Source: Thermogemmatispora onikobensis
Lineage (GTDB): Bacteria; Chloroflexota; Ktedonobacteria; Ktedonobacterales; Ktedonobacteraceae
DNA: 32,560 nucleotides
Assembly (NCBI RefSeq): GCF_001748285.1
Contig: NZ_BDGT01000050.1
Span: forward strand, 1 to 32,560
Reading direction: 5' to 3'
In this document: positions 2,877-31,667 of the stretch, in pieces
Numbering within the stretch: position 1 is the first letter of the stretch
How the letters are laid out: each line of letters begins with the position of its first letter
Program-made: the position numbers and the translations under genes
The notes under the pieces: generated by a model
The model's input: the letters and a program-made list of their open reading frames with translations, nothing else
Database searches by the model: none
What the model was told of the DNA's origin: nothing

Positions 2877-3001
2877 CCAGCCCCCTCTCTCAGCTGCACG
2901 CGCCCGGTCCCATGCAACCTGACCCTGGCCATCGCTGTGACCTTTGGCGGTGCGCGGGCGGCTCTTGCTGGTGCTCGCTGAAGTAGCGCCACCTCGCCTC
3001 T

Positions 3002-3022
3002 CATGCTATACTACTCAGCGAG
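3002..3022 (+). repeat. 21-bp direct repeat, copy 2, probable promoter of the hydrolase gene
   Basis: Exact second copy, 146 bases downstream of copy 1, ending 18 bases before the hydrolase ATG. Its TGC-TATACT (3004-3012) would start transcription about 20 bases before the ATG, and the repeat end flows into the GAGGAGG ribosome binding site. Confidence 0.7.
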
Positions 3023-10272: not shown

Positions 10273-10339
10273 ATAGAGGCATCTTATCATGGGTGCCACG
10301 GGCATACTTGCCCCAACCAGGGGCAGCAAGGAGCGTTTC

Positions 10340-11086
10340 ATGCTAACCTTTGAAGATGTGACCGGTTTCTTCCTAAAGGCGGCTGCGGAGGTCGGGCTGA
10401 CGGCACATCCCGAATACTGGATCAACTCCCGCACCATGGAACGTGAATTTGCCTGCACCTGTCACATCGGAAGCTGCGAACAGGTCGAAAACTCCAGCAT
10501 CTGTACCGTCTCCTTTAGCTGGGGTAGTCTGGATACCGCGCTTTCCCTCGAAGGGCCCAGGGGAGTCTGCGATTTCTTCCACGAGCCCCACGCCAATTGC
10601 CCGCACCTGCGCACGCGCGAGATTCCTGCGCTGGTGCTGGACCTCTCCTACTCGCTCTCCCTCAAAGGGACGACTTTCTCGGAAGAGTCGCTCCTCTCTC
10701 TGACCCAGATGCTCAGGCTGCGCGCCAGTGAGCACAGCAGCCGCACGATCGAGACCCGGCCCGGCGTCACGTTGACTCTCCAGGACCATCGCCTCGCGCC
10801 AGAGTCACTGACGCTCCAGCAGCGCGTGGAGCTCCCGATCTGGCACCCAGAGGGTTTGCGCGGCCTACATGAGAGTTTTCCTTACCAGTACAGCGGGGGT
10901 CATACACTCAGTCCAGGCTGGAGTCATCGCTACAACTATGAGGCGGTGGAGGACGAGGGCGAGACGGAGATTGTAGCCGATGACCCGCATCCCGAAGAAT
11001 GGTTACCTCGGGTCATGGTCGATGTCTGCCAGGACATTGTTCATGTGCTTGAAGCCTTGAGCGCGGTCTGCTCTCTTCCCGACTAG
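10340..11086 (+). CDS. Protein of unknown function, 248 aa
   Basis: I do not recognise a family. The protein is soluble, mildly acidic and has no signal peptide or membrane segment. Its first half is rich in Cys and His (CTCHIGSCEQ at 39-48, ICT near 55, GVCDFFHEPHANCPHLRT near 75-92), which could bind a metal, though no standard spacing is matched. The second half contains an acidic stretch (EDEGETEIVADDPHPEEW) and a final helix-like segment. The start at 10340 is chosen over the longer frame because AAGGAG lies 6 bases before ATG. It has its own near-consensus promoter and two overlapping hairpins at its 3' end, so it is a real, separately expressed gene. The region encoding CTCHIGSC to NCPHLR is the part to compare with other genomes. 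Confidence 0.75.
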   Translation: MLTFEDVTGFFLKAAAEVGLTAHPEYWINSRTMEREFACTCHIGSCEQVENSSICTVSFSWGSLDTALSLEGPRGVCDFFHEPHANCPHLRTREIPALVLDLSYSLSLKGTTFSEESLLSLTQMLRLRASEHSSRTIETRPGVTLTLQDHRLAPESLTLQQRVELPIWHPEGLRGLHESFPYQYSGGHTLSPGWSHRYNYEAVEDEGETEIVADDPHPEEWLPRVMVDVCQDIVHVLEALSAVCSLPD

Positions 11087-17018: not shown

Positions 17019-17048
17019 TTGACATGTTCCATGAACGCTTTCTACAAT
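17019..17048 (+). promoter_or_regulatory. Promoter of kinase A (TTGACA-N18-TACAAT)
   Basis: Perfect TTGACA at 17019-17024, 18-base spacer, TACAAT at 17043-17048; leader about 27 nt. Confidence 0.75.
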
Positions 17049-17081: not shown

Positions 17082-18377
17082 ATGATGGAGCAACCGCTGA
17101 GTTTTTCGGCTGAGGCGGGCCTGGCCGAGGAGGCTGGCAGTAAGCCTGGAGAGGTGGAGCGGCTCCTGCCGCCGGAGGCGCCGCGCGAGCTGGGCCATTA
17201 TCGTCTGGTGCGCCTGCTGGGCCGTGGGGGCTTTGCTGAGGTCTACCTGGGTGAGCATCGCTATCTGGGAACCGCGGTGGCCATTAAGCTCCTGCGGGCT
17301 CGCCTGGACCCTGAGATTCTGCAGCGCTTCTGCGCGGAGGCCCGCCTCGTGGCTCGCCTGGACCACCCTCATATTGTGAGGATCTTCGATTTTGTCCTGC
17401 TGGAGGAGCAGGGCCTGGCTTTTTTAGTGATGGAGTATGCTCCTGGCGGGACTTTGCGCCAGCGTCATCCCCGTGGTAGCCGCTTGCATCCGGCGACGAT
17501 CCTGCTCTATTTGCAGCAGATTGGGGCCGCTCTGGACTATGCGCACCGTCAGCGCTGCATTCATTGCGATATTAAGCCGGAGAATATGCTGATTGGGCGC
17601 GATGGCTCGCTGTTGTTGAGCGATTTCGGCATTGCGTCCCTGGCCGGCCAGAGCCAGGGGGACTGGCCACAGGCAGAGGCCATTGCGGGAACGCTGGCCT
17701 ATATGGCGCCGGAACAGCTGGCGGGTCAACCGCAGTTGGCCAGCGATCAGTATGCGCTGGGAGTGGTGGTCTATGAGTGGCTGTGCGGGGAGTGCCCTTT
17801 TCGTGGTTCGCCTGCTGAGGTGTTGGCCCAGCATGTGCAGGCGCCACCACCGTCGCTGCGTCAGCGCGTGCCCACCCTGCCGCCGGCGCTGGTCGCCGTG
17901 GTGGAGCGGGCCCTGGCAAAGCAGCCGGAGGCGCGTTTTGCGACAGTGCTGGAGTTTGTGCGAGCTTATGAGCAGGCCCTGGGCCAGGCTCTCCGTCCCC
18001 GCCCTCGCTTCCGTCCTCCTGCGCGGTTCTCGCAGGACCAGGTCGAGCGTCCGACACGGCGGGCCTTGATGGTGGGGATGACTAGCCTGGCAGCCAGCGG
18101 CTTGCTTGGTGGCGGGTTGACCTGGCTGGCTTTTTCTTCGTCTCAGCTGCACCCCAGTCGCCCGCCACTGCCCGATTGCCCGCTGCCGCTGAGTCAGCCA
18201 ACCAGACAGCCGCTTGAGGGGCCAGCCCAGGTGACGCCCACCAGACCAGTCCCCCAGGAGCATCAGGGCCAGCACCATGCTTCTTCTTCTTCTCCTCCTC
18301 TCTTTCCCCGAGCGTGGCCTTCCGCTGTCTCGCGGTCGTCTGGGTCCGCGCGTCCTGAGCAGCACCGTGTACCTTGA
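17082..18377 (+). CDS. Kinase A: Ser/Thr protein kinase with HCD catalytic loop and one C-terminal membrane segment
   Basis: A 431-aa Hanks-type kinase. The glycine loop is LGRGGFAEVYLG (46-57), the ATP lysine K69 is in VAIKLL, the helix C glutamate is probably E86 (CAEARLV), the hinge is MEYAPGGTLRQRHP, the catalytic loop is HCDIKPEN (161-168) with D163 and N168, DFG is at 181-183, and YMAPEQ is at 207-212. The arginine of HRD is replaced by cysteine, so this is a non-RD kinase that probably does not need activation-loop phosphorylation. After the domain comes TRRALMVGMTSLAAS and a hydrophobic stretch (about 328-351), then roughly 80 Pro/Ser-rich residues. There is no sensor domain. The start at ATG 17082 follows AGGAGGGCGAG; the longer frame has no better site. 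First gene of the kinase/TPR cluster. Confidence 0.9.
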   Translation: MMEQPLSFSAEAGLAEEAGSKPGEVERLLPPEAPRELGHYRLVRLLGRGGFAEVYLGEHRYLGTAVAIKLLRARLDPEILQRFCAEARLVARLDHPHIVRIFDFVLLEEQGLAFLVMEYAPGGTLRQRHPRGSRLHPATILLYLQQIGAALDYAHRQRCIHCDIKPENMLIGRDGSLLLSDFGIASLAGQSQGDWPQAEAIAGTLAYMAPEQLAGQPQLASDQYALGVVVYEWLCGECPFRGSPAEVLAQHVQAPPPSLRQRVPTLPPALVAVVERALAKQPEARFATVLEFVRAYEQALGQALRPRPRFRPPARFSQDQVERPTRRALMVGMTSLAASGLLGGGLTWLAFSSSQLHPSRPPLPDCPLPLSQPTRQPLEGPAQVTPTRPVPQEHQGQHHASSSSPPLFPRAWPSAVSRSSGSARPEQHRVP

Positions 18378-18403
18378 CAGGCCAATTTCGCCAGTGCTAC
18401 CAT
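18374..18403 (+). promoter_or_regulatory. Promoter after kinase A (TTGACA-N18-TACCAT, extended -10)
   Basis: TTGACA overlaps the kinase A stop codon (18374-18379); TGC-TACCAT ends at 18403. It probably drives the MFS gene with a long leader of about 520 nt. Confidence 0.55.
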
Positions 18404-18932
18404 GTACGATCGTGATGACTGTTCCTTTGTGCTTTGCGCTCAGCGTCGGCCCGCGCACGGCTGCGCTGCGCAGCGAGGCTATTCGCCCGAGCCATATCGC
18501 GCATGCTCCAGCCGCATGAGCCTGGCGCAGCTTATGCGGCAGAAATGAGGAGCAGCGCCACCAGTGTAAGCCAGGGCAGGACCAAGCAAGCAGGACGCCG
18601 TTCTGCTGATGGTGGGTTTTTGGCCTGCAAGCCAGCTCTGAGGGGAGAGAGCGAAGCGCTCTCCGCTCCTTCCTGTCTCTCCCGTCGCTGGCCTGGTCTG
18701 GCCCGGTTTGCTGCCTGGCGAAGACGTTGCCGCGATCGGCAAGCCTCTCCTCCTTTGTTTGCTTTGCTCCTCTGACTGCCCTCTCCCTCCGTTCAGCCTC
18801 TCTGCTGGCCTTGGTTTTGCTTCCTCTGACGGCTGCGCCAGGCTGGTTCCTTTCACTTCACTACTGCGTCCATTGCAGACGCTCGCACTTGCAAGAGCAT
18901 GTGATTCTATTATGAAAGGAACAGGCTGGATC
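18404..18932. other. Long leader before the second MFS gene
   Basis: About 530 bases with no convincing coding frame and no recognised riboswitch. Frames open on both strands here look like GC-rich shadows without ribosome binding sites. Confidence 0.4.
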
Positions 18933-20213
18933 ATGGAAAAGCGGATCGAGGGCGAGGGCGAGGGACAGAAAGCCCAGCCGTCGAGGGCATCGTCGCGCGG
19001 CGCTCGCCTGCGCCTCTTACTGGCCTACGACGGGTATAATCTGGCGACGAATGCGACCTTGAGTAGCGCGGTCTGGATGATCTATCTGGCGCGCCACGGC
19101 TATAGTCCCCTGGCCATCGGCTTGCTGGAGATGACTTTGCATGTGACGAAGCTGTGCGCGGAGATTCCCACGGGGATCTACGCCGATTTGCTGGGGCGGC
19201 GTCGCAGTCTGTTGGTGTACTGCGGTCTGTCGGCAGCGGCGATGCTCGGCCTGGCCTGGCCACTTGGGCCGTTGGTTGTGCTGAGCTTTATGCTTTGGGG
19301 CCTGGCTTTCGCTTTCCGTGGCGGCGCTGAGGAGGCGCTGCTTTGGGGCCTGGCGCGGCGTCTGGTGACTGGCGAGGGCCAGCAGCAGCGCTACTTTCGT
19401 CGCTTGATTAGTCGCATGTATCTGCTGGCGCTCGTTGCGGAGGCGGCCAGTACGAGCCTCGGGGGGCTACTTGGCCAGGTGCAGGAAGTGCTGCCGTTCC
19501 TGGTTCAGGCAGCCCTGGCGCTGCTGGGGATGCTGCCCTTGCTGGCACTACCGGAGGAACGTGGCAGTAGCCAGCGCCAGCCGCTACGGCATTTGCTGCA
19601 GGGATTGCGGGCAGTGCGCAGCGATCGGGTGTTGGTTGCTCTGCTTGCGCTGGCGGGCCTGGTTGAGGGCTGCGGCCTGACCATTTATTACTACCACCAG
19701 CTCTATCTGGTCGGTCTGGGGCTGACGCTGGCCCAGGTGGGCCTGGTGATCGCTGCCAGCCAGGTGATCAGCTTCGGCTGCACCGCCCTGGCTCCGGCGC
19801 TGCTGGCGCGGCTGAGACAGAGCCATCTGCTGGTCGGGCTGCTGGTGGCGTTGGCCGGCGGGCTGCTGTTGATGAGCCTGCCACTGGTACCGCTCAGTCT
19901 GGCGGGTTTCCTGGTGCTCTTCCAGGGAGCGTACGCGCTCTGGCAGCCGGTGGTGAGTACCTGGCTCAATGAGCGCAGCCCCGAGGCTCAGCGGGCCACG
20001 GTGCTCTCTCTGCAGACGGGTCTCTTTAGTGCGGCAATGGTGACCCTCTTCCCGCTCTTCGGTCTGGGAGTAGGAGAAATGAGCTACCGCTCGCTCTATC
20101 GTGCGCTCGCGCTGCTGGCCAGTGGTGGTTTGCTGCTGGCCGGCCTGGGAAGCTTGCTCTGGGGAGGCCAGCGAGGACTTCGCGGGAGCCAGAAGCAGAG
20201 CGAGCAGCCCTGA
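18933..20213 (+). CDS. Major facilitator superfamily transporter
   Basis: A 426-aa inner-membrane protein with about 12 hydrophobic segments. The first cytoplasmic loop carries EIPTGIYADLLGRRRSL, a good match to the MFS motif G-x3-D-x3-R-R. Each half has several conserved small-residue helices (for example FMLWGLAFAFRGGAEEALLWG). The substrate is unknown; the EIPTG-x-xAD form is common in drug-efflux-like families. The first 28 residues are charged (EKRIEGEGEGQKAQ) and cytoplasmic. The start is set at ATG 18933 with AAAGGAACAGG upstream; ATG 18912 is possible but has no ribosome binding site. It sits between kinases A and B on the same strand but has its own promoter region, so a link to the kinases is only positional. 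Confidence 0.85.
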   Translation: MEKRIEGEGEGQKAQPSRASSRGARLRLLLAYDGYNLATNATLSSAVWMIYLARHGYSPLAIGLLEMTLHVTKLCAEIPTGIYADLLGRRRSLLVYCGLSAAAMLGLAWPLGPLVVLSFMLWGLAFAFRGGAEEALLWGLARRLVTGEGQQQRYFRRLISRMYLLALVAEAASTSLGGLLGQVQEVLPFLVQAALALLGMLPLLALPEERGSSQRQPLRHLLQGLRAVRSDRVLVALLALAGLVEGCGLTIYYYHQLYLVGLGLTLAQVGLVIAASQVISFGCTALAPALLARLRQSHLLVGLLVALAGGLLLMSLPLVPLSLAGFLVLFQGAYALWQPVVSTWLNERSPEAQRATVLSLQTGLFSAAMVTLFPLFGLGVGEMSYRSLYRALALLASGGLLLAGLGSLLWGGQRGLRGSQKQSEQP

Positions 20214-20437
20214 GTACGGCGGCCAGCGGATCGCCCGCGCGCCGCTCGTGACACTCGTCTGGCGCGCAGGTTCTGGTCAGGCGGTGAGCCGGACGGGGCG
20301 ACGCTGGCCTGCCATTTTTTGGGCACAACTTACAAATTTTTAGCTACTCGTCAGCAGCGATCTTGTACGACATGACGCTACCGACACGTGGCCGCGCTAG
20401 AACTGAGCAGCAGGCACTTTCAGCGTCTTACGAGTAC
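20214..20437. other. Intergenic stretch before kinase B
   Basis: No gene seen. A short AT-rich patch (TTTTTTGGGC and AAATTTTTAG, 20316-20342) lies after the MFS gene and may contribute to termination; no hairpin of note was found beside it. Confidence 0.35.
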
Positions 20438-20466
20438 TTGACGAGCTTTCTTCTCTCTCCTACAAT
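20438..20466 (+). promoter_or_regulatory. Promoter of kinase B (TTGACG-N17-TACAAT)
   Basis: TTGACG at 20438-20443, 17-base spacer, TACAAT at 20461-20466; leader about 112 nt. It has the same -35 hexamer as the promoters at 4587, 15509 and 2846(-). Confidence 0.75.
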
Positions 20467-20584
20467 AAGTATGCTGGTAGATTGTTAGCCAGAGGCCCGG
20501 CAGGGCCAGCTTCGCTACGACTGTGTCACACGGGGAAATCCGCCCAACCCAGGGCTTGCAAGCACGGGCAAGAGAACAGGCACG

Positions 20585-22648
20585 ATGGTTGATCATTCGG
20601 GTAGACAGCTCGATAACTACTTCCTCCTCCGCTTGCTTGGGCAGGGTAACTACGGCCAGGTCTACCTGGGCGAGCATACCCAGCGCAAGCATCTCGTGGC
20701 GGTGAAGGTGCTCCACACCGGCCTGAACTATGAGGCGCTGCGCCATCTGGTCAATGAGGCCCGCCTCTTCCGCCTGCGACATCCACATATCGTGGCAGTC
20801 CAGGACTTCGGTCTCGAGCAGGCGCTCGGGGTGCCTTTCATTGTGATGGACTATGCCCCCAACGGCACCCTGCGCCAGCGCCATCCCCAGGGAACGCGCG
20901 TGCCGCTGGAGCTGGTGCTGCACTATGTGCAGCAGCTCGCCGATGCCCTGCAGTATGCCCACGATGAAAATGTGATCCACCGCGACCTGAAGCCGGAAAA
21001 TATGCTGCTGGATCAGGAGGACCGCCTCCTGCTGACCGACTTCGGGATCTCGGTGATCGTGCAGACCCCCCCAGGCCAGACCCCTCTGGAGCAGCAGAAC
21101 GCCGGGATCGCCGGCACCCCCCACTATATGGCCCCGGAGCAGTTTATGGGACGTACCAGCCGCGCCAGCGATCAGTATGCGCTGGCGGTGATCGTCTATG
21201 AGTGGCTCTGCGGCGATCCCCCTTTCGATGGAACCTTCTATGAGCTGTATGCCCAGCATTCTCAAGCCTCTCCTCCTTCTCTGTTGGAGCGCGTGCCCGA
21301 GCTCTCGCCCGAGATCGAGTATGTGATTATGCGCGCGCTGGCAAAGGACCCCAAGGGACGCTTCGCCAGCGTGCGCGAGTTCGCTCAGGAGTTGGAACGC
21401 GCCGCCCGCTCGCTGCTGGTGCTCAATTATGTGCCGCGCATCCAGCCTCGTAGCCGCCAGGAGTGCTTCGATGATGGGGTGGCTTTTTATTTTCAGGGCC
21501 GCTATAAGGAGGCGGCTGAGGCTTTCTCTGAGGCTATCTCACAGGACCCCACCTACGCCGACGCTTATGTGAACCGCGGCAGCTGCTATCTGCAGCTCCA
21601 GGAGCCTGAAAAGGCCCTCACCGATTTCGATCGCGCTCTGGAGCTGAATCCTCAGCAGGCTATCGCTTATAATGGGCGCGGCTACGCCCGCTGCGCCCTG
21701 GGCGATGATCGCCGCGCGCTGGCCGATTTCGAGCGCGCTCTGGAGCTTGATCCAGCCTACCTGGAGGCTTATTTTAACCGGGGCCGCGCTTATCGCCGCC
21801 TCCAGGAGTATGAGAAGGCTATCTCTGACTATAGCCGCGTGCTGCAGCTCGACCCCTCTCATGTCGACGCCTATAATAATCGCGGCAATGCCTATTGCTG
21901 CCTGGGCAATTTCGAGCAGGCCATCGCCGATTTCAGTCAGGCTATTCGCCTCAATCCCGAGTATACGCTGGCCTACAATAACCGCGGTAATGCCTATGAT
22001 GCGCTGGGCGAGCACGAGCTGGCTCTCTCCGATCTGACACGCGCTATCGAGCTGGATGCTTTCTACGCTAATGCCTACAATAACCGTGGAACGGTATATC
22101 GCAATATGCAAGAGTATGAGCAGGCTCTGGAGGATTATGAGCGCGCTCTGGAGATCCAGCCCGATTACGCCCTGGTGTACTACAATCGCGGCCTGACTCG
22201 CTATGAGATGCAGGACTATGAGCAGGCCATTCAGGATTTCGAGCGCGCTCTGGAGCTTGATCCCGGTTACGTGGAGGCTCATATCAGGCGCGGCATGGCT
22301 TATGATGCTTTGCAGGAGTACGAGAAGGCAATTGCGGATTTCAATCGGGCTGTGGAGCTGTCCCCCTGTCTGGCACGCACTTACGTTTACCGCGGCCTGG
22401 CTTACGCCGGTCTGGGGAACTACCGACGGGCAATTCTGGACTACGATCGCGCTCTGGAGCTGCGCCCCGATGATGCTGAGAGCTATCGCCATCGGGGTGT
22501 GGCCTACTTCCGCCTGGGAGACTACCAGCGGGCGATTCTGGACTACGATCGCGCGCTGCAATTGGACCCGAGCAATCGGCTGGTGCGGGCGAGCCGCGAG
22601 GAGGCGCTCTATCGGCTGCGCCAGGAGCGGCGGCGCGAGGCTCGTTGA
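20585..22648 (+). CDS. Kinase B: active-looking Ser/Thr protein kinase fused to 11 TPRs
   Basis: A 687-aa cytoplasmic protein. The kinase domain (about 11-275) is complete: LGQGNYGQVYLG (18-29), K41 in VAVKVL, hinge MDYAPNGTLRQRHP, HRDLKPEN (132-139), TDFGIS (151-156) and YMAPEQ (181-186), followed by SDQYALAVIVYEWLCG. It is therefore a classical RD kinase. Residues 291-664 are eleven consecutive 34-residue tetratricopeptide repeats close to the consensus A-Y-x-N-R-G-x-A-Y, ALxDFxRALELDP. A basic tail ends the protein. No membrane segment is present. TPRs usually bind partner proteins, so the array may recruit substrates or the related TPR proteins encoded downstream. ATG 20585 is preceded by ACAGG. 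It is the only kinase of the four with every catalytic motif intact. Confidence 0.93.
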   Translation: MVDHSGRQLDNYFLLRLLGQGNYGQVYLGEHTQRKHLVAVKVLHTGLNYEALRHLVNEARLFRLRHPHIVAVQDFGLEQALGVPFIVMDYAPNGTLRQRHPQGTRVPLELVLHYVQQLADALQYAHDENVIHRDLKPENMLLDQEDRLLLTDFGISVIVQTPPGQTPLEQQNAGIAGTPHYMAPEQFMGRTSRASDQYALAVIVYEWLCGDPPFDGTFYELYAQHSQASPPSLLERVPELSPEIEYVIMRALAKDPKGRFASVREFAQELERAARSLLVLNYVPRIQPRSRQECFDDGVAFYFQGRYKEAAEAFSEAISQDPTYADAYVNRGSCYLQLQEPEKALTDFDRALELNPQQAIAYNGRGYARCALGDDRRALADFERALELDPAYLEAYFNRGRAYRRLQEYEKAISDYSRVLQLDPSHVDAYNNRGNAYCCLGNFEQAIADFSQAIRLNPEYTLAYNNRGNAYDALGEHELALSDLTRAIELDAFYANAYNNRGTVYRNMQEYEQALEDYERALEIQPDYALVYYNRGLTRYEMQDYEQAIQDFERALELDPGYVEAHIRRGMAYDALQEYEKAIADFNRAVELSPCLARTYVYRGLAYAGLGNYRRAILDYDRALELRPDDAESYRHRGVAYFRLGDYQRAILDYDRALQLDPSNRLVRASREEALYRLRQERRREAR

Positions 22649-22894
22649 GCCTTCCCACCTCCGTCGCCGGGCCTGCCTGCCCCCTCCCTTATCTCGCTCC
22701 TCCCTTTGCTTGCCGGCCTTGCTCCTATCCTGGCCAGGCCGGCGCCTGCCAGAGCCGCCAGCGCTCTCCCTTCTCTATCTGCTCGGCGGGACTGACCACA
22801 GGCGTCCTTTCCCTCTGGATGAATGGATAGCGCTTGCTACCATGACCACAATCGGATCAGCAGGTTTTCAGGATCAGGAGTAGAATAGAGAAGC
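22649..22894. other. Spacer between kinase B and the TPR protein
   Basis: No gene. A possible extended -10 TGC-TACCAT lies at 22835-22843 without a clear -35; AGGAG occurs at 22876-22880. Confidence 0.35.
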
Positions 22895-22954
22895 ATGACC
22901 ACTCCATTCGATCAGCTCAATGCTAAAGAGCAGCAACAGCCAGAATACAGATAA
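22895..22954 (+). CDS. 19-codon ORF in frame with the TPR gene, ended by TAA (possible interrupted N-terminus or leader)
   Basis: ATG 22895 opens MTTPFDQLNAKEQQQPEYR and stops at TAA 22952. The next start of the TPR protein (23030) is exactly 45 codons downstream in the same frame, and the codons between the stop and that ATG read RPETSTGQIELAPSSAP and on without another stop, matching the Pro/Ala/Glu-rich start of the TPR protein. The simplest reading is one original gene with a nonsense change near its start; a translated leader peptide is the alternative. GAGAAG lies just before ATG. Confidence 0.4.
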   Translation: MTTPFDQLNAKEQQQPEYR

Positions 22955-23029
22955 AGACCAGAGACGAGCACCGGGCAGATAGAGCTGGCTCCTTCTTCTG
23001 CCCCCCAGCCCGCGCCTTCACTGGAGGAG

Positions 23030-24592
23030 ATGCCTGCGGCGGCGCCGTCCCTGGCGGGGCAGCCCTCAGCCGAGGCTCCCCCGCAGGCGGAGGAGCTTCT
23101 GAGACAGGCCCAGGAACTCCGCAAAAGTGGCGCTTTGGAGGCGGCACGCTCTACGATAGAGCAAGCACTGCGATTGCAGCCGAAGAGTGCTATACTGCTC
23201 AATGAGCGTGGCGAGATTCGCTATGCACAGAGAGATGTCAACGGCGCTTTCGCCGACTGGCAGGCTGCTCTGGAGCTGGAGCCTGCCTGTATCGATGCGA
23301 TCAATAACCGCGGGGTTGTCTTTCTGGAGCGGGGTGAGTATGAGCAGGCCCTGGCCGATTTCAATGCCGCTCTCCTGCTCCAGCCTGATCATGTCGAGGC
23401 TCTCTCTAACCGCGGCGTCCTCTTCCTGCGCCAGGGGCAGTATGAGCAGGCTCTGGCCGATTTCAATGCCGCTCTCCAGCTCAAACCCGACCTGGTCGAG
23501 GCTCTCTCTAACCGCGGCGTCCTCTTCCTGCGCCAGGGGCAGTATGAGCAGGCTCTGACCGACCTGAACGCAGCCCTCCAGCTCAAACCCGACCTGGTCG
23601 AGGCTCTCATCAGTCGCGGCGTCCTCTTCCTGCGCCGGGAACAGTACGAGCAGGCTCTGGCTGACTTCAACGAGGCTCTCCGCCTGCAGCCGACGCATGC
23701 CAGGACATTGGTCGAGCGGGGCCGCGTCTTGAGGGCCATCGCCCCCGAGCTGGCTCTGGCCGACTTCAATGAGGCCATCCGCCTGCAGCCGACCGCCAAC
23801 GCTTTCCAGGAGCGCGCTCTTCTCTTTTTGAGTGAGCAGCGCTACAAGGAGGCGGTCGCCGACTTCACCGAGGCGCTGAACCTCTCGCCAGCGCCTTCGT
23901 CTGCACTGCTGACCTATCGCGGTACCGCTCATTTGCGCGCGGGTGATCTGCTCCAGGCCCTGACTGACTTCAATACCGCCCTCCAGCTCAAGCCCGAGGA
24001 TGCTTCCGCCCTGCATGGGCGCGGGCAGGTCCTGATGAAGCTAGGAGAGGCCGAGCAGGCATTGAATGATTTCAATGCAGCCATTGCTCTGCAGCCGGCG
24101 AATGCCACTTTCTATGAGAGCCGGGGCACGCTGCTCACGCGGTCCTTCGATCAGGAGCGGCAGCGGCAAGCGCTGGCCGATTTTACGGAGGCCATCCGCC
24201 TGCAGCCCAACAGGCCTATTCCCCACGTTGGCCGTGCGGCCCTGCTCTTTGGCAAGCTGCAGTGGGAGGAGGCCCGCGAGGCCATAGAGGAGGCGATCCG
24301 GCTCAATCCGTTCGATCCTTACACGTGCCGCCTGGCGAGCGAGATCTACCGCTGGCTGGGCCAGCGCGAGGAGGCGATCGCCAGTCTGTCGCAGGCGATC
24401 AGGCTGCAGCCAGGGCGGGCGAAAGACTACTGGCAGCGCGCCACTCTCTATCTCTGGCAGGGCCGCTATGGACTCGCCGCCGCCGATTTCCGGCAGACTC
24501 TTCGCCTGGCGCTGCGCGCCAGGCGGCGGCGCCTGCTGCAGGCCGCCGGCTTCTGGAAACGGAAGGAGAGCGGGCAGGAGGGCCGACTGTGA
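23030..24592 (+). CDS. TPR-only protein (about 14 repeats)
   Basis: A 520-aa protein made almost wholly of tetratricopeptide repeats, about 14 by eye, beginning at residue 20 (AEELLRQAQELRKSGALEAA). Repeats 4, 5 and 6 are close copies: GTCGAG-led units recur at 23393, 23495 and 23597, exactly 102 bases apart. One unit near residue 345 carries a short insertion (TRSFDQERQRQALADF). There is no kinase domain, signal peptide or membrane segment; the tail is basic (RARRRRLLQAAGFWKRK). TPR similarity to kinase B and pseudokinases C and D suggests a shared origin and perhaps mutual binding. The start is uncertain: GGAGGAG directly abuts ATG 23030, too close for a normal ribosome binding site, and an in-frame ORF upstream is cut by a stop. 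It may reinitiate here. Confidence 0.82.
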   Translation: MPAAAPSLAGQPSAEAPPQAEELLRQAQELRKSGALEAARSTIEQALRLQPKSAILLNERGEIRYAQRDVNGAFADWQAALELEPACIDAINNRGVVFLERGEYEQALADFNAALLLQPDHVEALSNRGVLFLRQGQYEQALADFNAALQLKPDLVEALSNRGVLFLRQGQYEQALTDLNAALQLKPDLVEALISRGVLFLRREQYEQALADFNEALRLQPTHARTLVERGRVLRAIAPELALADFNEAIRLQPTANAFQERALLFLSEQRYKEAVADFTEALNLSPAPSSALLTYRGTAHLRAGDLLQALTDFNTALQLKPEDASALHGRGQVLMKLGEAEQALNDFNAAIALQPANATFYESRGTLLTRSFDQERQRQALADFTEAIRLQPNRPIPHVGRAALLFGKLQWEEAREAIEEAIRLNPFDPYTCRLASEIYRWLGQREEAIASLSQAIRLQPGRAKDYWQRATLYLWQGRYGLAAADFRQTLRLALRARRRRLLQAAGFWKRKESGQEGRL

Positions 24593-24829
24593 CTGAGCAG
24601 TCACGCTCTTTTGCTGCGCTACCCGGTTGCTCTCTACCACAGGGACATGAGTAGCTCATAGCGCAGCTAGTGCAGCCCTTCTTGTATGAGGCTATGAGGG
24701 AGAAGATGAGGAGGCTCTTCTACAGGCAGCAAGGCAGCAGGTCCCAGATTCCGATGAGGAAAGCTGTCAGGGCTGGCAGGCACAGCGCCGATCGCTCCCG
24801 CTTCGTACCATCAGGACCATCAAGCCAGC

Positions 24830-25078
24830 GCTCTCCAGCCCGGCGGCGCCAGGATCTGCCTGCAGCGCGTCACTCTATCCCTCCCGCAGGACAATCTGCC
24901 GCAGGGCCTGGCCGGCTTCAGCAGGGCGCTCCGTCTCAACGCCCGCCACGCCGCGGCCTCTTCCAGCCCTGGTACGCGCTTTCTTGAGCCGGTCCCTGGC
25001 CGTTGCGATGTGCTGACGGTAATCGAGAAAAGGGCGCTGGCAATGGTGCGCGAGGCCATGCGCCGCCAGCAGTCCTGA
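24830..25078 (+). pseudogene. Decayed TPR-gene remnant
   Basis: This frame has no start codon near its beginning, yet reads ALQPGGARICLQRVTLSL then PQDNLPQGLAGFSRALRLNA, which follows the end of the preceding TPR protein (RLQPGRAKDYWQRATLYL then WQGRYGLAAADFRQTLRLAL) almost position by position. Upstream DNA at 24771-24800 (GGCTGGCAGGCACAGCGC and on) still resembles the corresponding TPR coding sequence (CGCTGGCTGGGCCAGCGC) but in a shifted frame. The last 40 codons show no TPR likeness. I read it as a broken partial copy left by duplication within the cluster. The rest of 24593-25218 shows no gene. Confidence 0.5.
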
Positions 25079-25105
25079 ATCAGGAGCCTCGCGCGCTGGC
25101 TCTTC

Positions 25106-25135
25106 TTGCATCGAGCCAGCGGCTTTCTCTATACT
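25106..25135 (+). promoter_or_regulatory. Possible promoter of pseudokinase C (TTGCAT-N18-TATACT)
   Basis: Good -10 TATACT (25130-25135), weak -35 TTGCAT (25106-25111); leader about 77 nt. Confidence 0.45.
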
Positions 25136-25218
25136 ATCAGCTGGCTATACCAGTATGCCACTGGGAATGCGCCAGGGCCAGCAGGCGTATCAGCGGAGGA
25201 GAGAGGAGAGACGAGGTG

Positions 25219-27459
25219 ATGCAGGATCTGACAGGAGCAGAGTTTGAGGGCTATCGGTTGTTGGGCCTGCTCGGGAGGGGCAGCCTGGGCCAGGTCTATC
25301 TGGCCCGCAGGACGAGCGAGGAGGCCGAGGGGAGAGCCGCGCCGCCTCTGGCTCTTAAGGTACTGAACACGCCCGCGCTCAGGAAGGCGGAGCTGCCTCC
25401 CTTGTTCGCCGCGCTGCTGGCTTTGCGGGCGCTTCGCCATGAGCAGCTGCTGCCACTGCTGGACTTCGGCTACGACAGCGCGCGTCGTCTGCTCTTTGTG
25501 GTGCTGCCCTATGTCGCCGCTGGCTCTCTGCGCGCGCGCCATCCTCACGGCTCCCGCCTGCCCCTGCTTACGGTGGTGCGCTACGCGACGCAGCTCGCTT
25601 CGGCGCTGCAGGCCGCCCATGAGGCCAGCTGGTTGCACGCTCATTTGAAGCCGGAGAACGTGCTGCTCGCCGACGATGAGCGGCTCTTGTTGAGTGAGGT
25701 GGGCCTCTGGACAGTGCTGCAGCCTTTTACGAGAGGGACCGCTGCCTGGCTTGCGGGCGAGCTGACGGCCTCCTCCTATCAGGCCCCTGAGCAGCTGGCC
25801 GGGCAGCCTGTGGCGGCCAGCGACCAGTATGGGCTGGCGGCGCTCTGCTACGAATGGCTGACGGGCGCCCTACCACAGCGCCTGGAGGAGGGCGGAACGC
25901 TGCAGTCGCTGCGGGCCAGCGCGCCGGAGCTGAGCACGGCAGTTGAGCAGGTGCTGGCTCAGGCGCTGGCCCCTGATCCGGCCAGGCGCTTCCTTTCCGT
26001 GCAGGCTTTTGCCGAGGCTCTCAGCCGGGCCGCCGCCGCCCTGGAGGTGGCTATTCCCCAGGAGCGCGAGCTGGTTGAGCTGTGGCTGCAGCAAGGCAAC
26101 GAGCACTATCGTCAGGGACGCCGCCAGGAGGCCCTGGCCGCCTTCGGCGAGGCGCTGCGTCTCGATCCACGCAACGTTTACGCCTACAATCGGCGCGGCC
26201 AGGTCTATGCTGAGCTGGGACGCACTGAGGAGGCCCTGGCCGACTTCAATGCCGCTATTCGTCTGGCTCCTTCCGACCCGACGGCCTACCACCATCGCGG
26301 CTTTCTGGCGCTGCAACAGGACCGGCTGGAGCAGGCGCTGGAGGACTATACGACGGTGCTGCGCCTGGAGCCGGGGCGCGCGGTGAGCTATAACAATCGC
26401 GGGCGCATCTATCTGGAGCTGGGACGCCCTGGCGAGGCCCTGGCCGATCTGAATGAGGCCCTTCGCCTCGACCCCGCCTATGCCCCGGCCTATTTTAATC
26501 GCGGCAACGCTTATGAGGAGCTGGGAGAGCCAGAGCGGGCTATCGCTGACTATACGGAGGCGCTGCGCCTTGATCCATCGCATGCCCCGGCCTCCTTCCA
26601 TCGTGGGCTGCTCTATCAGCAAGAGGGCGAGCTGGAGCGGGCGCTGGCCGATCTCGACGAGGCCATCCACCTGGATACCAGCGATGCCGCCGCCTATCTG
26701 GCACGCGGCGAGGTCTATCTGGCCTTGGGTCAGGCTGCTCAGGCCCTGGCCGATTTCGAGCAGACGCTTCGCCTTGATCCCCACAACGCCGGGGCCTATC
26801 TGCAGCGCGGCTTGCTGCGGCGACGCCAGGGAGAGGAGGCTCAGGCCCTGGCCGACCTGAGCACGGCTATCCGCCTGGCGCCCGCCGATCCCCTGGCCTA
26901 TCGAGAGCGCGCCAGCCTGTATGAGGAGCAGGGCGACTTTGATCGGGCGCTCTCGGATCTGGATCAGGCCATCCACCTGGCTCCTGCTGAGGCCCTCAGC
27001 TATGCTCAGCGCGGTAATCTCCGCCAGCAACGGGGGGAGATCGAGGAGGCCCTGGCCGACTTCGAGCAGGCGCTTCGCCTTGATCCCAGCCTGGCGGCGG
27101 CTTACTTTGATCGGGCTGTGCTCTACGCGGAGCTGGGCGAGCTGGAGCTGGCCCTGAGCGATCTCAACGAAGCTCTTCGCCTGGCCCCCGAGACTGCCGA
27201 GGCCTATTATTATCGCGGCCTGCTCTACGCCGATCTGGGCCAGCTCCAGGAGGCCATCACCGACCTCAGTGAGGCCCTTCGCCTCCGTCCCGACGATGCC
27301 GCCCTGTACCGGGAACGGGCGCGCCTCTACGAGCTGCAGGGGCGACTTCAGTACGCGCTGGCCGATCTGGAGCGCGCCCGACGCTACGCGCCAGAGGATG
27401 AGGAGATCTGGCAGACCCTGCAGCGGGTTCGGCAGCTTTTGCACTCACAGGGAGACTGA
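25219..27459 (+). CDS. Pseudokinase C: kinase-fold domain lacking catalytic Asp, fused to 13 TPRs
   Basis: A 746-aa cytoplasmic protein. The kinase fold is clear: LGRGSLGQVYLA (18-29), K47 in LALKVLN, hinge LPYVAAGSLRARHPHGSR, KPENVLL (144-150), QAPEQ and SDQYGLAALCYEWLTG. The catalytic loop, however, reads HAHLKPEN (140-147), with histidine in place of the catalytic aspartate, and DFG reads EVG (160-162). ATP-binding elements (glycine loop, lysine, catalytic-loop asparagine) remain, so it may bind nucleotide but should not transfer phosphate. Residues 286-727 are thirteen 34-residue TPRs. The start at ATG 25219 follows a GGAGGAGAGAGGAGAG tract; the longer upstream frame is leader. It lies beside kinase B relatives and is probably a scaffold or inhibitor derived from an active kinase-TPR paralog. 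Confidence 0.92.
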   Translation: MQDLTGAEFEGYRLLGLLGRGSLGQVYLARRTSEEAEGRAAPPLALKVLNTPALRKAELPPLFAALLALRALRHEQLLPLLDFGYDSARRLLFVVLPYVAAGSLRARHPHGSRLPLLTVVRYATQLASALQAAHEASWLHAHLKPENVLLADDERLLLSEVGLWTVLQPFTRGTAAWLAGELTASSYQAPEQLAGQPVAASDQYGLAALCYEWLTGALPQRLEEGGTLQSLRASAPELSTAVEQVLAQALAPDPARRFLSVQAFAEALSRAAAALEVAIPQERELVELWLQQGNEHYRQGRRQEALAAFGEALRLDPRNVYAYNRRGQVYAELGRTEEALADFNAAIRLAPSDPTAYHHRGFLALQQDRLEQALEDYTTVLRLEPGRAVSYNNRGRIYLELGRPGEALADLNEALRLDPAYAPAYFNRGNAYEELGEPERAIADYTEALRLDPSHAPASFHRGLLYQQEGELERALADLDEAIHLDTSDAAAYLARGEVYLALGQAAQALADFEQTLRLDPHNAGAYLQRGLLRRRQGEEAQALADLSTAIRLAPADPLAYRERASLYEEQGDFDRALSDLDQAIHLAPAEALSYAQRGNLRQQRGEIEEALADFEQALRLDPSLAAAYFDRAVLYAELGELELALSDLNEALRLAPETAEAYYYRGLLYADLGQLQEAITDLSEALRLRPDDAALYRERARLYELQGRLQYALADLERARRYAPEDEEIWQTLQRVRQLLHSQGD

Positions 27460-27507
27460 GCCTCTCTCTTGCTCTGCTTCTCTGACCTCCTGCCCAGCCG
27501 CCAGTAT

Positions 27508-27536
27508 TTGCCCTGACCGCGAGGGTGTGCTATGCT
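27508..27536 (+). promoter_or_regulatory. Promoter of pseudokinase D (TTGCCC-N17-TATGCT, extended -10)
   Basis: TTGCCC (27508-27513), 17-base spacer, TGC-TATGCT ending at 27536. A second -10-like TATACT lies at 27546-27551. Leader about 100 nt. Confidence 0.5.
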
Positions 27537-27650
27537 ATCCGCGTTTATACTATAGCGGTGCAGGCCACTGCCACGCTCGCGCTCTGCCGACTCCAGATCT
27601 ACCGATCCTGCGCGCTCTCATTTGAAATCAAAGGAAAGGAGACGTCCCTG

Positions 27651-30600
27651 ATGCTCCCCGATCTTTCTGGCCAGCGCCTCGGTCGCTACCAGCTTATCCG
27701 CCTGCTAGGCCACGGCCCTCTCGGCCAGGTCTATCTGGCCGAGGACCAGGAGCAACGGTTAGCAGAGCCTGTCGTGCTCAAACTCCTTACGGCTTTTCCC
27801 TCCTCCCCAGCACAAGCCGAGGGCTTTCAGGATGAGATCCGCTTCTTGAGGCGGCTCTCTTTTCAGAGCTTTCTGCCCTGGCTCGACTCCGGCTTCGATT
27901 CCGTCCTCTCGCTCCCTTTCTTAGTCCGGGCTTACGTTCCCGGCAGTTCCTTGCGCGCCCATCATCCCAGTGGCTCCCGTCTCTCTCTCTCTACTGTGCT
28001 AGACTATGTGAACAAGATCGTTCCCGCCCTGCAGGAGCTGCATGATCTTCACCTGCCCCATGCACGTCTGAAGCCCGAGAACGTCTGGCTGGATGCTCAT
28101 GGGCACCTGCTGCTCAGCGACGGTGTTCTCACTTTCCCCGAAGCCGATCCCGATAGGCAGACCCCTTCTCCCTACCTGGCCCCCGAGCAGCGGCAGGATC
28201 AGGCGCAACTCGCCAGCGATCAGTATGCCCTGGCAGTCATGATCTACGAGTGGCTGGCCGGCGAGCTGCCCACTCTCGGTAGCACCGACCAGCCAGCCCT
28301 GCAGCTTCCTCCCCTTGCCGCTGACGATGAGGCCCCTGGTATCCAGGCCGCCTTCGAGCTGGCGCTGCAGCGCGCCCTGGCTCCCCAGCCCACTGAGCGC
28401 TTTGCTTCTGTACGCGACTTCGCTGCCGCTCTCGAGCAGGCCACTATCGGAAGTCCACCTGCTCCCTCAGAAGAGGTCGAGGAGCTGCTCCAGCAGTTTC
28501 AGAGCGCCTATGAGAAGGAGGACTACAACCAGGCTCTGGCCATTTTGAATGAGGTTATCCGCCTCGCTCCTGGTCATTCCGACGCTTATCTCTACCGCGG
28601 CCTCTACTACCTGATTCACAACCAGGGCGATCAGGCACGGGCCAACTTTGACGCAGCTATCCGCAACGATCCCCTGAACGCGGAGGCCTACCTCTGGCGC
28701 GGCGCCATCTTCAGTCTCCAGGACCATCGCGAGCTGGCCCTCGCTGACTTCAACGAGGCCATCCGCCTCCAACCTGATCTTGCCAGAAGCCACAGCCACC
28801 GCGGTCTCTTCTATCAACGGCAAGGAGAGCATGAGCTGGCTCTCGCCGACTTCAACGAGGCCATCCGCCTCAATCCTACAGACGCGCAACTGTATAGCGA
28901 CCGCGGCTCGCTCCATCACGAGATGGGGCGGCTCGACCTGGCTCTCGCCGACTTCAATGAGGCCATCCGCCTCGATCCTACAGACGCTCAAGTCTATAGC
29001 GACCGCGGCTCCGTTCATCGCGAGATGGGGCGGCCCGACCTGGCTCTCGCCGACTTCAATGAGGCCATCCGCCTCGATCCTACAGACGCCCAACTGTACA
29101 ACTATCGGGCTGTGCTTCATCGCGACCTGGAGCAGCTCGATCTGGCTCTCGACGACCTCAATGAAGCCATCCGTCTCGATCCCACCACCGCCCAACTGTA
29201 CCACCATCGGGCTGTGGTTCATCGCGACCTGGAGCAGCTCGATCTGGCTCTCGCCGACTTCAACGAGGCCATCCGCCTCGATCCCACTAACTCCCAACAG
29301 TACAGCAACCGCGGCGCCCTTCATCACCAGATGAAGCAGCCCGAGCTGGCTCTCGCCGACTTCAACGAGGCCATCCGCCTCGATCCCACTAACTCCCAAC
29401 AGTACAGCGACCGCGGCTTCCTTCACCGCGAGATGAACCAGCTCGATCTGGCTCTCGCCGACTTCAACGAGGCTATCCACCTCGATCCCACCAACCTCGA
29501 ATTCTACCTGCACCGCGCCTCGCTTCACCGCGAGATGAACCAGCTCGATCTGGCTCTCGCCGACCTCAACGAGGCCATCCGCCTCGATTCCACCAACGCC
29601 GAACTGTACAACTATCGGGCAGCGCTTCATCGCGACCTGGAGCAGCTCGATCTGGCTCTCGCCGACTTCAACGAGGCCATCCGTCTCGATCCCACAGACG
29701 CCGAGCTGTACCTCCATCGGGCAGCGCTTCATCGCGACCTGGAGCAGCTCGATCTGGCTCTCGCCGACCTCAATGAAGCCATCCGCCTCCAACCTGATCT
29801 TGTCAAGAGCTACGCCTTCCGCGGCTTCCTCTACCAACGGCAAGGAAAGTATGAGCTGGCTCTCGCCGATTTCAACAAGGCCATCCGCCTCGCTCCTACC
29901 AACACCTACCTGTACAGCTATCGGGCTATGCTTCATCGCGAGATGAACCGGCTCGATCTGGCTCTCGCTGACCTCAACGAGGCCATCCGCCTCGATCCCA
30001 CTAACGCCGAACTGTACAGCTATCGCGGCGAGTTGCGTAGTCATGCGAGCCAGTTCGAGCCGGCTCTCGCCGACTTCAACGAGGCTATCCGTCTCGATCC
30101 CACTAACGCCAAAGCCTATCTGAGGCGTTGCCTCCTTCACCGGCTGCAAGGCCACTACGATCTCGCGTTGGCCGACCTCAACCGGATACTACAGCTCTTC
30201 CCTGACGATCCAGATCTCTACCTTGATCGCGCTCAGCTTTACGAAGAGATGGGGGATTTCACCAGCGCCCTCTCTGACTACCATGAGGCGATCCGCCTTG
30301 CTCCGACCTACGTCCGCGCTTATAACCACCGCGGCCTCCTTTATCGAGAGCAGGGTCAATATGATCTGGCTCTGGCTGACCTCAATGAGGCCATCCGCCT
30401 CAATCCTACCGATGCCTCCAGTTACAATAACCGCGCCCTCATTCATGAGAAGTTAGGGAACCTCTCTCAGGCCCTCAGCGACTACAATCAGGCGATTCAG
30501 CTCGATCCCGGCCATACGGCGGCTTATAACAACCGCGCCCTCCTCTACCAGTCGCTGGGCAATTTCGAGCCCGCGCTGGACGACTTCAATGAGGCCATTC

Positions 30601-30779
30601 GTCTGAATCCGTATCTCGCGCTTCTCTACTACCATCGTGGCCGGCTCTATGCCAGCAATGGGATGTTAGCAGAGGCTATCGCTGATCTGGAGCAGGCTTA
30701 TCTCCTCTCTCCCGACAACGAGAGCATTCGCCATGAGTTAGAGCAGGCTCGGCAGGCGCGCAAACGGCGCAGACATTGA
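27651..30779 (+). CDS. Pseudokinase D: degenerate kinase domain fused to 22 near-identical TPRs
   Basis: A 1042-aa cytoplasmic protein, the largest of the cluster. The kinase fold persists: LGHGPLGQVYLA (19-30), K44 in VVLKLLT, hinge VRAYVPGSSLRAHHPSGSR, KPENVWL (141-147), YLAPEQ and SDQYALAVMIYEWLAG. The catalytic loop reads HARLKPEN (137-144), with arginine at the catalytic aspartate position, and DFG reads DGV (157-159); the activation segment is also short. It should be catalytically dead. Residues 276-1023 are twenty-two uninterrupted 34-residue TPRs, many repeating the LDLALADFNEAIRLDPT core, followed by a basic 19-residue tail. ATG 27651 has AAAGGAGAC 8 bases upstream, whereas the longer frame has none. 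Such a long regular array forms a superhelix suited to holding several partners. Confidence 0.92.
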   Translation: MLPDLSGQRLGRYQLIRLLGHGPLGQVYLAEDQEQRLAEPVVLKLLTAFPSSPAQAEGFQDEIRFLRRLSFQSFLPWLDSGFDSVLSLPFLVRAYVPGSSLRAHHPSGSRLSLSTVLDYVNKIVPALQELHDLHLPHARLKPENVWLDAHGHLLLSDGVLTFPEADPDRQTPSPYLAPEQRQDQAQLASDQYALAVMIYEWLAGELPTLGSTDQPALQLPPLAADDEAPGIQAAFELALQRALAPQPTERFASVRDFAAALEQATIGSPPAPSEEVEELLQQFQSAYEKEDYNQALAILNEVIRLAPGHSDAYLYRGLYYLIHNQGDQARANFDAAIRNDPLNAEAYLWRGAIFSLQDHRELALADFNEAIRLQPDLARSHSHRGLFYQRQGEHELALADFNEAIRLNPTDAQLYSDRGSLHHEMGRLDLALADFNEAIRLDPTDAQVYSDRGSVHREMGRPDLALADFNEAIRLDPTDAQLYNYRAVLHRDLEQLDLALDDLNEAIRLDPTTAQLYHHRAVVHRDLEQLDLALADFNEAIRLDPTNSQQYSNRGALHHQMKQPELALADFNEAIRLDPTNSQQYSDRGFLHREMNQLDLALADFNEAIHLDPTNLEFYLHRASLHREMNQLDLALADLNEAIRLDSTNAELYNYRAALHRDLEQLDLALADFNEAIRLDPTDAELYLHRAALHRDLEQLDLALADLNEAIRLQPDLVKSYAFRGFLYQRQGKYELALADFNKAIRLAPTNTYLYSYRAMLHREMNRLDLALADLNEAIRLDPTNAELYSYRGELRSHASQFEPALADFNEAIRLDPTNAKAYLRRCLLHRLQGHYDLALADLNRILQLFPDDPDLYLDRAQLYEEMGDFTSALSDYHEAIRLAPTYVRAYNHRGLLYREQGQYDLALADLNEAIRLNPTDASSYNNRALIHEKLGNLSQALSDYNQAIQLDPGHTAAYNNRALLYQSLGNFEPALDDFNEAIRLNPYLALLYYHRGRLYASNGMLAEAIADLEQAYLLSPDNESIRHELEQARQARKRRRH
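28476..30719 (+). repeat. 22-unit tandem array of 102-bp repeats coding TPRs
   Basis: Every unit is exactly 102 bases (34 codons). The core CTGGCTCTCGCCGAC and GAGGCCATCCGCCTC recur nearly unchanged from about 28735 to 30080. Units 3-4 and 13-14 share the rare QPDL and YQRQG motifs at a spacing of 1020 bases (10 units), units 7, 8, 12 and 13 share HRDLEQLDLAL, and units 10 and 11 share HREMNQLDLAL, a mosaic pattern expected from unequal exchange. Confidence 0.9.
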
Positions 30780-31187: not shown

Positions 31188-31667
31188 ATGGAGAAAGCAC
31201 AAGAGTCGGCTACCTCTGCTGCGTTTTCAACACCATCACGTCCACAACAACAGCAGCCGCTCAGGCCGATTACCCAGCTGTGCCCCCGCTACGAGCACGC
31301 GATGCAGATCCTCGGCAAGCGCTGGACCGGCCTGCTGATCGCGTCGTTGCTGGATGGCCCGCGCCGCTTTGGCGAGTTGACCACGATCGTCGGCGGCCTC
31401 TCCGACCGCGTGCTCTCCGAGCGCCTGCGCGAGCTGGAACAGGAGGGCATCGTCGAGCGCGTCGTCTACCCACACATTCCTGTGCGCGTCGAATACCAGT
31501 TGACAGAGAAGGGCCGCGCGCTGAAGCCGGTGATCGATGCCATCCACGCCTGGGCTGAGCGGTGGATCGAGTTGCCTCTTCCTCCATCTTCGTGCCAGCC
31601 TTCAGCGATGGATTCATCTTCAGCTTCCTCCTGCTCCGAGGGAGAAACCTGCCCTCGCGAGGCCTAA
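31188..31667 (+). CDS. HxlR-family winged helix-turn-helix transcriptional regulator
   Basis: A 159-aa DNA-binding protein. The HxlR domain spans about 30-125: QLCPRYEHAMQILGKRWT with Cys32 at the family's conserved position, LLIASLLDGPRRFGELTTIV, then the recognition-helix region LSDRVLSERLRELEQEGIVER, and the wing (VYPHIPVRVEYQLTEKG), where P-x-RVEY-x-LT-x-KG is a family hallmark. HxlR proteins bind as dimers, and several respond to electrophiles or oxidants through the conserved cysteine, so redox control is possible here. The flanking N-terminal (QQQQ) and C-terminal (serine-rich) tails look disordered. ATG 31188 has AAAGG 8 bases upstream. Its target is unknown; adjacent genes all have their own promoters. 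No divergent partner gene is visible. Confidence 0.92.
   Translation: MEKAQESATSAAFSTPSRPQQQQPLRPITQLCPRYEHAMQILGKRWTGLLIASLLDGPRRFGELTTIVGGLSDRVLSERLRELEQEGIVERVVYPHIPVRVEYQLTEKGRALKPVIDAIHAWAERWIELPLPPSSCQPSAMDSSSASSCSEGETCPREA

Follow-up and report, generated by a model that had tools for sequence, protein, structure and literature searches.

Complete kinases and predicted pseudokinases with TPR arrays in a Thermogemmatispora locus made of a fixed core and a variable interval

Organization of the locus

The stretch of DNA analyzed here (32.6 kb, hereafter the window) is an entire contig (C50) of the 5.56 Mb genome of the thermophile Thermogemmatispora onikobensis (Chloroflexota, Ktedonobacteria). 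It contains six genes in a row on the + strand, which we call A, MFS, B, T, C and D. A preliminary description of this DNA had reported four kinase-fold genes, a TPR-only protein and a TPR remnant, all on one strand. The listing of open reading frames and the profile searches recovered every one of these features at the same coordinates, together with a MFS transporter gene located between A and B that was absent from that description.

Gene A (about 17082..18377, + strand) codes for a non-RD (HCD) kinase with the full catalytic set and no TPR. Its C-terminal part has one hydrophobic segment (about residues 367-392 of the 471-aa ORF), by which the protein would be anchored in the membrane, and then a short Pro/Ser-rich tail. 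The MFS gene (about 18912..20213, + strand; PF07690, E 2.5e-19) has an uncertain start, its ORF opening at 18708. B (20585..22648, + strand) codes for 687 aa with a complete kinase domain and 11 TPRs, and T (23030..24592, + strand) for a TPR-only protein with about 10 repeats. Between T and C lies the TPR remnant (about 24821..24976, + strand), which matched the TPRs of the cluster with tblastn E values of 5e-4 to 2e-3. C (25219-27459) and D (27651-30779) are built alike, with a predicted pseudokinase domain (25219..26035 and 27651..28442, + strand) and then a linker and a TPR array (+ strand), with 13 repeats in C (26036..27459) and about 22 in D (28443..30779), the latter in near-identical tandem DNA copies. 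Pfam detected the kinase domain in A, B, C and D, with PF00069 scores of 157, 147, 68 and 62 bits, all over the cut-off of 31.7 bits, and TPR arrays in B, T, C and D. An HxlR-type regulator (31188..31667, + strand; PF01638, 115 bits) forms the right border of the variable interval that is described below.

A profile built from the cluster's own repeats gave TPR counts of 0 in A, 11 in B, 10 in T, 13 in C and 21-22 in D. At the DNA level the repeats have a 102-nt period and are present in tens of copies, and 48 of the 107 TPR_11 matches listed fall in the window. The numbers are constant among orthologs (11 for B in six genomes, 13 for C in five, 21-22 for D in two). Therefore, the expanding arrays (0, 11, 13, 22) of the preliminary description are right as counts, but they reflect a difference between genes and not an ongoing expansion within the genus.

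By inspection, the neighbors of the cluster read as housekeeping genes (CTP synthase, PRPP synthetase, GreA and PanC). These neighbors, together with family scores below cut-off, led us to discard a defense system: the PADLOC hits to the PD-T4-6, MADS6 and PglW defense kinases correspond to the generic kinase domain, and the MAD6 and PglW scores were far below the NCBIfam cut-offs. Elsewhere in the window, positions 10289-11086 code for a 265-aa protein with no match in Pfam or NCBIfam.

Candidate promoters

Sigma70-like matches precede A, the MFS gene and B, and those of A and B are conserved in the six Thermogemmatispora genomes compared. The candidate promoter of A (17019..17048, + strand; TTGACA-18-TACAAT) agrees with the consensus at 11 of 12 positions, and both hexamers are identical in all six genomes. 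That of B (20438..20466, + strand; TTGACG-17-TACAAT) lies within a block that is near-invariant in the same genomes. Upstream of C, the 12-nt block TTCTCTATACTA (25124..25135, + strand), which includes a -10-like TATACT, is identical in five genomes within poorly conserved surroundings, and it may act as a promoter as the sigma70-like matches would. Since A, MFS and B have matches of their own, the cluster is probably not one operon and its genes are likely transcribed separately; a single operon found no support.

In another part of the window, a 65-nt direct repeat (74% identity; 2812-2876 and 2958-3022) ending in CATGCTATACTACTCAGCGAG is located between a PanC-like gene on the minus strand and a hydrolase-like gene. 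The two copies are possibly paired promoters.

Catalytic residues

We have compared the kinase motifs of the four domains and of their orthologs. B is complete (VAVK, the aC-Glu, HRDLKPEN and TDFG). A is non-RD (VAIK, Glu, HCDIKPEN and SDFG), yet it retains the Lys, the Glu, the catalytic Asp, the Asn and the DFG motif; HCD is also found in another kinase of the genome (L024). In C (LALK, HAHLKPEN and SEVG) the catalytic Asp, the DFG Asp and the aC-Glu are gone and the beta3 Lys is kept. In D (VVLK, Glu, HARLKPEN and SDGV) the catalytic Asp is gone and the DFG motif is scrambled, while the beta3 Lys, the aC-Glu, the catalytic-loop Asn and an Asp at the DFG site are retained. The motifs are thus as first described, with catalysis complete in B, non-RD in A and its residues lost in C and D. 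The count of one active and three altered kinases that had been derived from them is wrong: A has every catalytic residue, so the set consists of two complete kinases (A and B) and two that are predicted to be dead (C and D).

These patterns extend to the orthologs. A and B have the whole active-kinase set (beta3 Lys, aC-Glu, HxD Asp, Asn and DFG Asp) in six of six genomes. The set is incomplete in C in five genomes (aC-Glu, HxD Asp and DFG Asp lost) and in D in two (HxD Asp lost). All five C orthologs have the same dead motifs, HRD to HA(H/N) and DFG to EVG, differing only by the H or N at one position, and the changes in D (HRD to HAR, DFG to DGV) are the same in T. carboxidivorans. Considering as a pseudokinase a domain that has lost at least one of the Lys, the HxD Asp and the DFG Asp, with the loss kept in orthologs, C (5/5) and D (2/2) are predicted to be pseudokinases.

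The G-loop and the pocket of C are almost invariant across orthologs, and the nucleotide pocket is more invariant than the remainder of the domain (37/45 vs 111/224 positions, p 6e-5). This fits a retained nucleotide binding, although it may reflect folding only, the same bias being seen in the active A (p 0.0035).

Conservation and turnover within the genus

The comparison included T. onikobensis, T. carboxidivorans PM5, T. aurantia A1-2, T. tikiterensis T81 and the MAGs HOG59 and HOG45. The MFS gene is shared with five relatives, all of them Thermogemmatispora, in which it is syntenic and 75-91% identical. The order YdjM-A-MFS-B is constant in the six genomes and the right flank is HxlR-HIT, except in HOG59, whose contig ends before HxlR; in the four remaining relatives the contig is long enough and this regulator is syntenic. 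No gene of the cluster is more strongly conserved than B (95-98% identity within the genus).

The interval between B and HxlR is different. It contains T-C-D in T. onikobensis, T-D in T. carboxidivorans, C and an active kinase-TPR relative that we call E in T. aurantia, a TPR gene and C in T. tikiterensis, and a T remnant, two TPR genes, C and a broken E in HOG45. In HOG59 there is C and then the contig end. C is thus found in five of the six genomes, D in two (it is absent from at least three), and E intact in one and broken in one. D, the intact E and the broken E occupy the same position before HxlR. T is intact only in T. onikobensis and T. carboxidivorans (74% identity), with a partial degraded copy in HOG45. 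In every one of the six genomes at least one predicted pseudokinase-TPR gene, C or D, is found beside B. However, C and D co-occur only in T. onikobensis, so they are not obligate partners. The synteny check suggested in the preliminary description hence succeeds in full for A-MFS-B and largely for C, but not for D.

There are also remains of past events. The TPR remnant between T and C appears in T. carboxidivorans too, with an in-frame stop. In the T-D interval of this species a 21-aa scar (L061:10678-10740), just upstream of D, has an 86% match to the C terminus of C, indicating that C was deleted there. This deletion, together with the absence of D from at least three genomes, means that neither gene is essential. 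The linker and TPR array of D are 88% identical in T. carboxidivorans. The E-type kinase-TPR gene of HOG45 (L063:15503-16898) is interrupted by a TAG, and T. tikiterensis has two truncated fragments (L053 and L171) similar to E2, another member of the group of E.

Outside the genus, the top matches to C and D do not exceed 45% identity, and 51 of the 52 kinase domains sampled from other genera are catalytically complete. C and D are therefore genus-specific within the 29 family genomes searched. The locus is restricted to Thermogemmatispora and consists of a fixed core and a variable interval.

Ancestry of the kinase domains

In a tree of 81 kinase domains A, B, C, D and F (a further kinase described below) each form one clade, and C, D, E and E2 group together. 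A focused tree separated C, D and E from all else with support 100/99. Because C and D have long branches each was omitted in turn, and the one left still joined E and E2 at 99; a long-branch artifact behind this clade can be discarded. Within it, the support for C and D as sisters was 73/92, and a clade of D with E was not rejected (p 0.275). A single clade of A, B, C, D and E was rejected by the AU test (p 0.0098), and also with F added (p 0.035), while B, C, D and E as one clade was not (p 0.208). The proposed local duplication of all four kinases hence receives support for C and D, which descend from one local kinase-TPR family with E. It is compatible with the data for B and does not extend to A, whose domain cannot be placed in a common clade with the others.

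The motifs shared by A, B, C and D, which had been taken as an argument for local duplication, are indeed present in the four, but also in other genera. The strict R-x-(R/H)-H-P-x-G-(S/T)-R motif is found in five domains of the genome (A, B, C, D and F) and in 7 of 52 related domains of other genera; the SDQYxLxxxxYEWLxG block appears in 10 of 66 own domains and in 39 of those 52. They mark a Ktedonobacterial kinase subfamily and are not, alone, evidence of local duplication. F, with a kinase domain, a transmembrane segment and WD40-like repeats, is the sole kinase of the genome outside A-D with the strict motif. In T. aurantia and T. carboxidivorans it comes right after HIT, in convergent orientation (L062:2579-4456 and L167:356-2326). 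In T. onikobensis (L006/L169, G000:C12:108800-109799) it is cut by the end of contig C12, and this contig probably borders the window on the right.

B, C and D had seemed the only kinase-TPR fusions of the genome in a count with our own TPR profile, but the Pfam search showed more, with TPR_11 matches in kinase frames also on contigs C14, C16, C44 and C64. As in the cluster, kinase and TPR matches share one open frame; they have fewer TPR matches than the cluster genes and fall, where placed, outside the C/D/E clade. Of 69 kinase-like domains that could be scored in the genome, 21 (30%) lack at least one of the beta3 Lys, the HxD Asp and the DFG Asp, so pseudokinases as such are common in T. 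onikobensis. A review gives up to 67% for some bacterial kinomes (PMC12599244). A second active-to-dead series was found on contig C61 (L085, G000:C61:10000-19900), where three tandem kinase ORFs of about 950-990 aa go from HRD/VDFG to HCD/VGFG and HGD/VNLL. Besides, two single ORFs, L079 (G000:C43:3500-6500) and L088 (G000:C23:47000-52500), have two kinase domains each, one complete and one devoid of catalytic residues.

Selection

We estimated omega (Nei-Gojobori dN/dS) by domain for pairs within the genus. The values were 0.07-0.15 for the A kinase, 0.01-0.07 for the kinase and 0.05-0.10 for the TPR part of B, 0.25-0.37 and 0.11-0.23 for those of C, and 0.26 for T. For D they were 0.46 (95% 0.27-0.79) in the kinase and 0.57 (0.41-0.82) in the TPR part. 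C and D are therefore under purifying selection, with omega below 1. The higher values are no signature of dead kinases, since F (0.35-0.48) and E2 (0.29), both with a full catalytic set, change at a similar pace; omega alone does not mark the dead genes.

C shows a reversal of the usual relation. In its deepest pair the TPR part (0.106 [0.076-0.140]) is more constrained than the kinase domain (0.366 [0.266-0.498]), with separate 95% intervals. In the same pair B is the opposite (TPR part 0.049 vs kinase 0.012). A, L017, L018 and L023 also go the other way, and E2 is level.

Relation to known kinases and pseudokinases

AlphaFold2, run with 12-row alignments of the window sequences and the named relatives, predicted a kinase fold for C (pLDDT 87.9, pTM 0.88), with a poorly predicted activation segment (residues 174-183), and for D (pLDDT 80.8, pTM 0.80). 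With the PF00069 matches of A-D, and the predicted bilobal folds of C and D matching kinases, they belong to the protein kinase superfamily. The nearest solved folds to C and D are the mycobacterial PknI, PknB and PknA and the staphylococcal PknB, PknI being nearest to C, and among solved structures kinases of this type are the best match to B, C and D in both fold and sequence. They have no TPR array, and PknB and PknA retain the catalytic residues.

The domain order of B, C and D, a Ser/Thr kinase and then a C-terminal TPR domain, is that of PknG. This kinase is known from Mycobacterium and Corynebacterium, with one homolog in Ktedonobacter racemifer, and its TPRs couple the signal to the choice of substrate (PMC8546545). 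However, the proteins of the cluster have no rubredoxin domain or long N-terminal region, their TPR arrays are much longer and the adjoining paralogs are predicted pseudokinases. The profile search found no rubredoxin match among the families listed, and no more than about 20 residues precede the kinase domain. The PknG of Corynebacterium has no rubredoxin either, but the N-terminal region is present (PMC8546545). We have thus ruled out that they belong to PknG.

The pseudokinase review describes the bacterial Ser/Thr families ActPs1-3, GLW, CP1, DYD and DLHK, and scaffold roles for MviN and EssB/YukC (PMC12599244). C and D share with these families the kinase fold and the lost catalytic motifs. 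Set against the descriptions given there of ActPs3, GLW, CP1, DYD and DLHK, C (HA(H/N), EVG) and D (HAR, DGV) fit none. In GLW pseudokinases, as characterized there, GLW replaces HRD and Leu or Trp replaces the beta3 Lys; in C the Lys is retained and the only GLW comes behind the DFG site (SEVGLW), so we rejected this assignment as well. TPR and Chloroflexi do not appear in the review, and our search of the literature on Thermogemmatispora or on Chloroflexi kinase-TPR proteins and pseudokinases found nothing on this locus.

A role for the pseudokinase-TPR genes

The reading that we favor, at even chances, is that C and D are retained non-catalytic pseudokinase-TPR scaffolds or adaptors beside the near-invariant active B, in a locus with a turnover interval. 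The membrane-anchored kinase A, the MFS transporter and the active kinase-TPR B would form the fixed core. Between B and HxlR, genes of the kinase-TPR and TPR-only types would have gone through duplication, decay and deletion. C and D would have lost catalysis after splitting from active ancestors, keeping the kinase fold and the TPR arrays. By functional analogy to PknG, the most likely role of B is that of a soluble kinase with a TPR array for recruiting a partner. C and D would most likely use their arrays to bind partners that they do not phosphorylate. They may hold partners of the B pathway, with B supplying the phosphorylation, their pseudokinase domain being a folded and possibly nucleotide-binding module. 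Indirect support comes from the purifying selection on both genes, from dead motifs that do not vary among orthologs, from the TPR array of C being constrained beyond its kinase domain and from the predicted pseudokinase-TPR gene that accompanies B in all six genomes. On the other side stand omega values no different from those of complete kinases, the deletion of C in T. carboxidivorans, the absence of D elsewhere and the separate candidate promoters.

The same turnover could be explained without any common function. C, D, E and T would then be decaying duplicates, and their nearness to B only the trace of local duplication. The stop in the E of HOG45, the E2-like fragments of T. tikiterensis, the scar of C in T. 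carboxidivorans and the degraded T of HOG45 are what this predicts, D evolves fast, and domains lacking a catalytic residue are frequent in the genome (21/69). Against it, the frame, the 13 TPRs and the altered motifs of C have persisted in five species and its omega is far under 1, omega is also below 1 in D (95% limit under 0.83), and each genome has at least one such gene beside B. We consider decay without function rather unlikely; natural selection keeps C and D, probably as binding proteins.

A stronger version of the scaffold reading is that signaling by B requires one pseudokinase-TPR partner, C or D interchangeably, with the TPR array as the selected part and the dead domain as a nucleotide-sensing or allosteric module. 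Active kinase and pseudokinase would then form a bacterial pair that is renewed as genes turn over locally. This we hold to be unlikely.

A single dedicated assembly of the four kinases, with A at the membrane, B as the enzyme and C and D as graded scaffolds joined by TPR-TPR contacts, could account for the synteny of A-MFS-B (6/6) and C (5/6) and for the motif common to A-D and F. But A has no recent common origin with the rest (p 0.0098), C and D co-occur only in T. onikobensis, and the separate candidate promoters argue against strict co-expression. Some physical assembly of the cluster proteins is plausible; the complete one is improbable. Non-standard catalysis by C or D (a weak kinase, AMPylation or an ATP-dependent switch) has precedents in SelO and SidJ (PMC12599244), and could draw on the residues kept in both D orthologs and on the near-invariant G-loop and pocket of C, but the catalytic Asp is replaced by Arg in D and by His or Asn in C, the aC-Glu and the metal-binding Asp are missing from C as well, and the top solved relatives are ordinary PknB/PknI-type kinases, all of which makes it decidedly improbable.

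This locus is a lineage-specific example of known kinase biology and not a new kind of system. It also illustrates that the proximity and common motifs of such genes do not prove a single origin. Bacterial pseudokinases are largely unstudied by experiment, according to the review (PMC12599244). Here an active kinase-TPR (B), an active sister (E) and two predicted pseudokinase-TPR relatives are found with natural presence and absence across named, isolated species. This offers a tractable setting for the role of a dead kinase domain once the TPR array is the part under stronger selection.
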